A DNA stretch of 53,977 bases from Ignisphaera sp. (GTDB taxonomy: Archaea; Thermoproteota; Thermoprotei_A; Sulfolobales; Ignisphaeraceae). The DNA is taken from positions 1 through 53,977 of the forward strand of contig JAJHQM010000004.1 of the NCBI GenBank assembly GCA_020833345.1. Direction: 5' to 3'. The notes below the pieces were generated by a model. It saw nothing but the letters and a program-made list of their open reading frames with translations, searched no databases and was not told the DNA's origin. Below are positions 24,514-27,062 of the stretch, piece after piece. The position numbers and the translations under genes are program-made. The stretch's first letter is position 1, and each line of letters starts with the position of its first letter.

Positions 24514-25674
24514 CTAAGGTCTTTTACTTTTACTAGTTCCTGGTGTACTAAACTTATTTCTAATAAGATACTTATCAATAATGCTTTCAGCAGCTCTTCT
24601 TCTAGTCTGGTGATCTTTTAAAAATCTTGCAACTCTATCTGCTAACTCAGCCTTGCATTCACCGCAGAGAAGAGCTCCAGATTTGCATGAATTATACCTC
24701 ATAGTCAGCTTCTCATCATCTTCTTCAAATAGCATTTCAAACATTTTAAAAACAGGACACATATCAGGATTGCCGCCAAGTCTTCTTTGAAGCTCTGCTG
24801 TAGGTTGACCGCCTGTGAATGCCTTCATAACCTTTTGCCTAGCAATCTCAGGTGAGTCTGTTGTGTATATAGCTGTTTCGGGTTTTGATGAAGACATTTT
24901 ACCTCCTATGCCAAGTCCTGGCAATAGCTTATTGTGTATTTGTGCAGGTTTTGGATAGCCTAGAGAGGGCGCCATATCTCTAGCAATTCTCCAGTACGGA
25001 TCCTGGTCTATACCAGCGGGTATCAAAACCTCAACCCTTTCACCATATAGATGCGTTGGTAGAAATGCTACTGATATTTGTAGAGTTGGGTAAAATATCA
25101 TACCAACATTAGTTGAATCAGTAAAACCAAAAGCTGCTCGTTGTGTTGAAAATGTTATTTTCTTAGCCACCTTAACAGCTATTGGATAAATAAATGATAT
25201 ATCCTCAGAATCTATGATTACATGAGTCTTTGCAGGGTCAAGTCCAAGTGCTGCTAAGTCAAGAATGTTTTCATATGCAAGTCTATTGTATTCCTCAAAT
25301 GAGCCCCCTTCACTATGCCAGAACTTTTCATCGTCTGTCATCTGAAAGAATAGCTCCAGCCCCATCTTATCTTGCAACCATTTTGTAAAGATCCATGGTA
25401 AGATGTGTCCAAGGTGTGTGTGTCCTGAAGGTCCTCTCCCAGTGTATAGCGCACATTTAATGCTTGATCTATATGCCTCTAAAAACTTATCAAAATCTCT
25501 ATGTGAGTAAAAGACATAGCGCCTTATCATCAGATGAAGCTCTCCTGTGATGCTTTTCAGTAACTCTATTTCACTTTCTGTTATAGGTCTGGATCCGAAG
25601 ATTTTTATGAGTTTATTATAATCTACAAAAGCCTCTGCTTCCCAGGGGGTTACACGAATTTCTTCAACTTCCAC
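24514..25674 (-). CDS. trpS: Tryptophanyl-tRNA synthetase
   Basis: 386 aa class I enzyme of the archaeal/eukaryotic type. TGRGPSGHTHLGH holds the HIGH signature (87-90), and KMSSS is at 259-263 after GLGIGG. GTG start with GGTGA upstream and a TATA-like element (complement of about 25716-25725). It is convergent with reverse gyrase, 12 bases apart. Confidence 0.95.
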   Translation of the reverse strand: MEVEEIRVTPWEAEAFVDYNKLIKIFGSRPITESEIELLKSITGELHLMIRRYVFYSHRDFDKFLEAYRSSIKCALYTGRGPSGHTHLGHILPWIFTKWLQDKMGLELFFQMTDDEKFWHSEGGSFEEYNRLAYENILDLAALGLDPAKTHVIIDSEDISFIYPIAVKVAKKITFSTQRAAFGFTDSTNVGMIFYPTLQISVAFLPTHLYGERVEVLIPAGIDQDPYWRIARDMAPSLGYPKPAQIHNKLLPGLGIGGKMSSSKPETAIYTTDSPEIARQKVMKAFTGGQPTAELQRRLGGNPDMCPVFKMFEMLFEEDDEKLTMRYNSCKSGALLCGECKAELADRVARFLKDHQTRRRAAESIIDKYLIRNKFSTPGTSKSKRP

Positions 25675-25760
25675 AACAGCTAGTCACCAACAATTATCAG
25701 AGTTTACACGTTCTTATTTATGGTAGTATTGATTAGACCTAAAAAGCTTTTTAATAAGGT

Positions 25761-26030
25761 ATTTATAGCGAAGAGATAAACACTCAGAGGAAAGCCATGA
25801 GAATTCTGCGGCCTTTCTCACTAAGAAACTTTATCCTGTTCAGATGGCCTGGCAATTAAGATAAGCCATGCGAAATCCGTCCATACAGGGCAGGTTATGC
25901 AATGGCTATGGATATTATACCAATTTCAAAATTCACACTATGAGAACAATGCCTATACTCACCCACTGCATAAGGAAAAACATTAAAGGCTATTACAGAA
26001 CTGATGGTAAGTTTAAATATTTGTGAATAC
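25761..26030 (+). ncRNA. Candidate structured RNA (first of two) with its own promoter
   Basis: No ORF of note lies here. A TATA-like ATTTATAG (25761-25768) predicts initiation near 25790. Directly there GAGGAAAGCC (25787-25796) pairs with GGCCTTTCTC (25810-25819) with one mismatch. Further on AGCCATGC (25864-25871) pairs with GC-A-ATGGCT (25899-25907), one bulged A. GAGGAAAG recalls RNase P conserved region I and ACAGAA occurs near 25997, but the helices that should precede region I are missing and the P4 partner pairs imperfectly, so I do not call it RNase P RNA. The 3' end is not defined. Confidence 0.35.
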
Positions 26031-26058
26031 CTGTAAATACTTGGCTCTTAGAGTAATG

Positions 26059-26069
26059 CTTAAATACCT
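26059..26069 (+). promoter_or_regulatory. Strong TATA-like element upstream of the 26.1 kb RNA
   Basis: GCTTAAATACC sits about 25-30 bases before the first hairpin of the structured RNA, the distance expected from TATA box to start site in archaea. Confidence 0.5.
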
Positions 26070-26087
26070 CTACACTTTATGGATGAT

Positions 26088-26285
26088 CCGCACTGCGGTG
26101 ATATAGGGAATCAGGTGGGAGCCTTGTGGCGCTGGGCTCGACAGGGGTCCATGGGGTGTGGGTGATGCTGGTGAATCCACACAGAGGCCCAACCCCGCTA
26201 ACGGAAATACAGCTATTTACAGGTACCATCAAGTACCGTTAGCGGAGAAACACTATAAAGGTGAGCCTATAACAATGGGATTTTT
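26088..26285 (+). ncRNA. Structured noncoding RNA of about 200 bases, family unknown
   Basis: A GC-rich island in AT-rich surroundings with many perfect pairings. CCGC/GCGG pairs 26088-26091 with 26095-26098. TATAG/CTATA (26102-26106, 26253-26257) could close the molecule. TGGGCTC (26133-26139) pairs with GAGGCCCA (26184-26191) and encloses GTGTGG/CCACAC (26156-26161, 26177-26182). CCGCTAACGG (26195-26204) pairs with CCGTTAGCGG (26236-26245) and encloses AAATA/TATTT and GGTAC/GTACC hairpins, a three-way junction. A TATA box lies 25-30 bases upstream and a run of six T (about 26280-26285) could terminate it. The 86-codon frame at 26158-26418 runs through these helices and is not likely coding. 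Confidence 0.6.
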
Positions 26286-26619
26286 TGAGTATCTCCTCTG
26301 TATTCACATTACTCTTCTCTGTCTTAACTCCTCTAAGGTGTCACGTAGTAGAATGCAGGCGAGGTGGAAGATTATAGTTGCATCTATGGAAAGTATCAGG
26401 TTTTTAAAGCTCATTTAAAATATCCTTATGGTATTAAGCATTGTAGCAAGTAGCATTACATACTGTAGCTCAGGTATTGTGCGCCTCAATGTTATTAGCA
26501 TACCACTTCTCTAGCCACTCCCAGCATCATTGTGGCAGTAGTTAAAGTATCAGGACTTAAAGCTCTTGAGAAACTGATAATAAGTGTTCGCAGAGGTAGT
26601 GAGGTTGTAGAATCATGCC
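26286..26619. other. Intergenic stretch without a recognisable gene
   Basis: Beyond the structured RNA I see no convincing ORF, tRNA or sRNA boxes up to the end of the next minus-strand gene. Confidence 0.5.
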
Positions 26620-27003
26620 TTAGTCCCTAGGAACCTCAATCCACTGAAAAGATGCTATGTCATGAACGAATTGGGTTAGTATGTCCAAGACATGATGTAA
26701 GCACTCTTCATTACCCTCAAGCCCTTTCTCATTACAAAGTCCCTTGATGATATTCCAACCACTAGCATCTTCTGTAAGTATTGTTACGCACCCTTCTTCA
26801 AACCTTCTACTGGGGGTTTTATAAAGTGCAATGTAAGCTCTAAGGCTGTTGAGTAAATCGAGAAGCCTTATCATTCTATACCTAGCTGAACATACATCAA
26901 GTCCGTAAAGACTGTAAAATGCTGTTCTTTCAACTGCATCCAGCTCAGCAGCTATTCTAATACCGTCCTCTGTTATAAAAACTCCCCTATTCTTCAACAG
27001 CAT
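26620..27003 (-). CDS. Hypothetical protein
   Basis: 127 aa, not recognised. The sequence is largely helical (YRMIRLLDLLNSLRAYIAL), begins KNRGVFITEDGIRIAAELD, and has four cysteines (C39, C72, C89, C100 approximately) without a CX2C pair. A GGGTG element is placed before ATG 27003, which supports translation. It is divergent from the nitroreductase. Confidence 0.6.
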   Translation of the reverse strand: MLLKNRGVFITEDGIRIAAELDAVERTAFYSLYGLDVCSARYRMIRLLDLLNSLRAYIALYKTPSRRFEEGCVTILTEDASGWNIIKGLCNEKGLEGNEECLHHVLDILTQFVHDIASFQWIEVPRD

Positions 27004-27062
27004 CGCACCCAGTTAAGGAGGCGCTATTCACATTCTGTAAATTAATAAGTAAGGTATAGGTA

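Follow-up and report, generated by a model that had tools for sequence, protein, structure and literature searches.

The RNA feature examined here is, to judge from its sequence and its relatives, very probably the wRNA scaffold (TnpB guide-RNA scaffold) of a solo element derived from an IS607 transposon. It lies in the window, that is, the whole 53,977-nt stretch of the Ignisphaera sp. contig that was analysed. The true unit is positions 25987-26253 plus a guide, and not 26059-26290 as delimited in a first-pass annotation of the same DNA (Table 1). Compared with its full-length relatives, the window copy is a deletion derivative: what remains is the left end with a promoter, the right end and, between them, a scrap of internal tnpB sequence (TGATCCGCACTGCGGTGA) and the tnpB tail. 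The degenerate tail carries one internal TGA, and the ancestral stop codon TAG is found at 26240-26242.

Table 1 Features of the solo element and its right flank, in window coordinates.
Feature	Position	Strand	Basis
Whole solo (MITE-like) element, 267 bp	25987..26253	+	Abrupt conserved ends; orthologous site G004:C53 lacks exactly this stretch
Left-end TATA-like box TTTAAATA	26012..26019	+	Common to the full-length parent in G028
TATA box CTTAAATA, putative driver of the RNA	26059..26066	+	Lies 72-74 nt from the left end in almost every solo copy
Scrap of internal tnpB coding sequence TGATCCGCACTGCGGTGA	26084..26101	+	Identical letters in the G028 (L038) tnpB
Degenerate tnpB tail overlapping the RNA scaffold	26108..26242	+	Matches TnpB residues 389-435
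Match to covariance model R1, 150.9 bits	26108..26254	+	
Helix P1	26119-26124 with 26134-26139	+	Covariation, e.g. GAGCCC/GGGCTC to GAGGGG/CCCCTC
Helix P2	26145-26149 with 26186-26190	+	Covariation
Helix P3	26156-26162 with 26176-26182	+	Covariation, e.g. GTGTGGG/CCCACAC to GCTTGGG/CCCAAGC
Helix P4, ten pairs	26195-26204 with 26236-26245	+	Covariation
Pseudoknot, P1 loop with the segment just before the guide	26129-26133 with 26249-26253	+	Covariation across the family
Putative guide TATAAAGGTGAGCCTATAAC, flanking DNA, length assumed	26254..26273	+	In every copy the right end is followed at once by variable sequence
T run in flanking DNA, outside the element	26281..26286	+	

The boundaries were obtained by aligning copies together with their flanks, which places sharp ends at 29 left and 59 right junctions. 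On the left, the conserved block begins abruptly at AGGCTRTT (AGGCTGTT), with the letters A, G and G in 29 of 29 copies and random sequence leftward, and on the right it stops at AAACRC (GGGGAAACGC), followed by variable DNA. The strong TATA box reported earlier occupies a fixed position in 20 or more copies of the element. The T run is not supported as the terminator for which it had been taken: it is not conserved and is absent from the orthologous element-free site in G004, a genome of the same genus as the window MAG (G000). The derivation of the guide from right-flank DNA is assigned by position only, and its transcription as a guide is presumed. No second genomic site for the window guide was found in G000 at up to three mismatches. 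A candidate hairpin in the 5' segment (CCGCACTGCGG) was dropped as it is not conserved among solos.

Copies of the element are dispersed among related genomes of heat-loving archaea. A BLAST search with 26040-26320 returned 18 matches in G004, 14 in G007 and 3 in G000, with matches in 12 of 41 relatives. Searching whole genomes with covariance model R1 gave at least one match in 82 of the 147 genomes of the order. The 1.8-Mb G004 genome contains up to 73 R1 matches versus 21 TnpB-domain matches, so that most of its R1 matches lack an adjacent TnpB domain. The weak matches in both R1 counts may include degenerate copies. A second solo element in G000 (L018:1501-1686, corresponding to G000:C43:4820-5005) is situated directly upstream of, and in the same orientation as, a gene for a DtxR/MntR-like iron-dependent repressor.

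An empty site was identified at G004:C53, where both window flanks (25561-25990 and 26527-27017) adjoin without the element. The joined site, ATTAAAGGC-TATAAAGG, aligns gap-free to ATTGAAAGC-AGTAAAGG if the 2-bp GC core is counted once. IS607 serine transposases carry out a 2-bp exchange (PMC6188088), and this one empty site, as read from the alignment, fits such a two-base exchange without target duplication, at a target with GC, and not GG, at its end. A second empty site was sought starting from one G004 copy; no relative with both flanks across the junction was found.

Covariation defines a fold in which P1 is followed by P2, P2 carries P3 as its cap, and P4 comes last, with a pseudoknot in addition. 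In 50 copies, 89.4% of the cells in the four helices are paired, a value that falls below 48% when the helices are slid, and 133 cells are double-changed versus 49.9 ± 5.2 in shuffles. The check for compensatory change by comparative alignment that had been suggested in the first-pass annotation came out in favor of a structured RNA. Restricting the count to the 27 solo copies preserves the signal (42 double-changed cells versus 19.1 ± 3.9 shuffled). For 71 distinct sequences the count is 531 versus 152 ± 10; this alignment, having been fitted to the model, favors the modelled helices, and relatedness remains in the shuffles. In the same 71 sequences the pseudoknot, which is absent from the model, has 98.4% of its cells paired, with one pair double-changed 21 times. 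Its pairings across the family are GCGTT:AACGC, CCGTT:AACGG (21 sequences) and GTGTT:AACAC. In the window copy three of the five pairs are kept and two are broken. In the GG-ended solos of the Staphylothermus-like genome G035, the terminal pair of the pseudoknot is altered in step with the dinucleotide at the transposon end (GC or GG).

The GC-rich, strongly folding character noted earlier is present, with a minimum free energy of -75.4 versus -64.8 ± 4.3 kcal/mol for shuffled sequences (z of -2.5; 3 of 200 shuffles were as good). This excess is modest taken alone, and the comparative evidence is decisive. The perfect ten-pair helix described before corresponds to P4, whereas the three-way junction appears in the minimum-energy fold only and is not recovered by the covarying structure. 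The earlier statement that the RNA is not a tRNA, 5S, SRP RNA or C/D sRNA agrees with tRNA/tmRNA and Rfam searches, which were without match. In the covariance search nothing exceeded the Rfam gathering threshold, and no Rfam family, RAGATH-18 included, matched the window or the tnpB-linked relatives.

In related genomes IS607-type tnpB genes have the scaffold immediately on their 3' side or overlapping them, which identifies it as a wRNA scaffold. The tnpB reading frames overlapped at their 3' end by intact relatives encode 434-462 aa. At 11 of 30 TnpB loci (in G004 and G001) an R1 RNA follows the PF07282 domain by 16, 24 or 55 nt on the same strand, none of the RNAs at these loci having gone into the model, and other tnpB genes likewise have an R1 match at their 3' ends. 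TnpA serine recombinases (PF00239) adjoin tnpB in L093, L096 and L112, with an HTH in L093 and L112. The presence of HTH and resolvase TnpA beside tnpB in intact relatives indicates IS607 parentage; IS200/IS605 parentage was ruled out because these relatives have a serine recombinase and not a Y1 transposase. The parent in G028 has a left end identical in kind, followed by tnpA in truncated form and by tnpB with the RNA at its end, and the non-autonomous multi-copy solos have their ends in common with an autonomous parent. The solos of G007 exhibit a different left-end layout, and G035 contains a parallel family of solos (L197, L204, L208, L212, L218, L221) with ends of the GG type, a left-end TATA box and the CCGTT:AACGG pseudoknot. 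The G007 layout and the GG-type ends suggest that solos probably arose more than once.

The 434-462 aa TnpBs score above the NCBIfam cut-off for TIGR01766 and give weaker hits to guided_TnpB (NF040570), and a Pfam search of the full-length proteins (L007, L051, L053 and relatives) returned nothing at E <= 0.01. As the clade is recognised by NCBIfam only, Pfam-based TnpB surveys would miss such proteins. The parental TnpBs (L038:234-1538, L169:119-1438 and L165:1628-2908) have an invariant Gly280 in place of the canonical RuvC-II glutamate and an invariant Glu326 located 46 residues later, with seven residues from there to the position of the first zinc-finger cysteine. In the TnpB clade closest to the R1 RNA the zinc-finger cysteines are also lost. 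This alternative-glutamate layout is shared with Fanzors and pro-Fanzors, for which it was described (PMC10711439), and, as judged from the alignment, the parental TnpBs may be active nucleases.

These relationships bear on the original proposal of a dedicated, undescribed RNA gene at an independent locus, weighed here as a housekeeping or regulatory RNA. The parts of it that survive are a structured, intergenic RNA with its own promoter and no Rfam family. Its independence does not: the RNA is a TnpB guide-RNA scaffold carried about by a transposon, dispersed and present in multiple copies with variable flanks, missing from an empty site in a relative, and homologous to tnpB 3' ends, so that an independent gene is now extremely improbable.

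What the solo RNAs do is a separate question. Presuming that the TATA box at 26059 drives transcription, the RNA would start at about 26085-26092, fold into P1-P4 plus the pseudoknot, and end in a guide copied from right-flank DNA, 26254 onward. TnpB supplied by another element would bind this RNA and cut guide-matching DNA that lacks the insertion, and repair of the cut empty site would copy the element back. The miniature element would thereby draw on TnpB in trans to be maintained and on TnpA in trans to move. We give maintenance by TnpB in trans just under an even chance. The more general proposal, that archaeal MITEs are guide-RNA-only selfish elements whose promoter-driven solo wRNAs recruit a distant TnpB in trans and so maintain dozens of copies per genome, is tentative and falls distinctly short of even.

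The same identity can be accepted and this mechanism rejected. The solos would then be inert, owing their scaffold to descent from tnpB and their ends to use as DNA by TnpA, with no RNA function. The host MAG (93.6% complete) yielded neither a cognate TnpB nor a TnpB of any kind with an R1-type wRNA next to it, and in G004, with its dozens of solos, the closest TnpB is present only as fragments. The partner missing from its MAG and the damaged pseudoknot of the window copy are in line with inertness, and the covariation is perhaps partly parental or spread by gene conversion. On the other hand, compensatory changes are kept within the solos alone, the TATA box is held at fixed spacing, and the tnpB frame is broken in many solos, which argues for constraint on the RNA rather than the protein. 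Inertness of the solos in general is a serious possibility, albeit one that we place somewhat below even. With regard to the window copy itself, the same missing scaffold-matched TnpB and damaged pseudoknot suggest that it is perhaps non-functional, and it may be a decaying member of the family or a relic.

Alternatively, the solo RNA may have been exapted as a regulator that pairs with mRNA or directs TnpB binding near genes. RNA-257 of Sulfolobus solfataricus acts as an antisense RNA (PMC3674436), and the G000:C43 copy precedes the repressor gene noted above. However, the flank-derived guide differs from copy to copy and that of the window has no second genomic site, and we consider exaptation improbable. 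The family also makes it testable whether TnpB acting in trans keeps up guide-RNA-only elements.

Several comparable RNAs have been published, and hence the kind of RNA is already known. Like the wRNA/reRNA of TnpB systems (ISDra2, and IS607 with its RAGATH-18 reRNA), the family has a right-end scaffold beside or overlapping tnpB, a guide-adjacent pseudoknot and a flank-derived guide; its pseudoknot position matches that of the ISDra2 wRNA, in which -5 to -3 pair with -103 to -105 (PMC10097598). It differs from both in its scaffold, which is not in Rfam, and in that the window copy is without tnpB. The solo element resembles the Fanzor 'ghost loci' of Spizellomyces, where the wRNA and ends are kept and the protein is missing (PMC10432273), but it is archaeal rather than eukaryotic, linked to IS607 and equipped with a left-end TATA box. 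By their descriptions, two sets of archaeal RNAs are similar in being intergenic and promoter-driven and in their homology to IS607/IS605 tnpB genes at the 3' end: the expressed RNA-257(1-4) of S. solfataricus, from the distal coding region of the ISC1904 transposase gene (PMC3674436), and sRk48/52/B/C of Pyrococcus abyssi, of which sRkB/C are expressed (PMC3124441). Both predate the discovery of wRNA and were read as antisense or K-turn RNAs. The approximately 260-nt IS607-associated MITEs of Staphylothermus marinus, described as DNA only (PMC2678158), are alike in size, copy number, IS607 association and occurrence in Desulfurococcales, although the presumed S. marinus genome (G075) has just 4 R1 matches versus 17 in its genus-mate G035. 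Archaeal MITEs and small RNAs derived from transposons have been described independently of each other, and the present family offers one possible way to explain both. It also provides a structure backed by covariation for IS607-type wRNAs of a family that Rfam lacks and that is common across one order of archaea. Relative to the open-access literature, the covarying scaffold, the link to an alternative-glutamate clade of archaeal IS607 TnpBs and the scale of solo amplification appear to be new.
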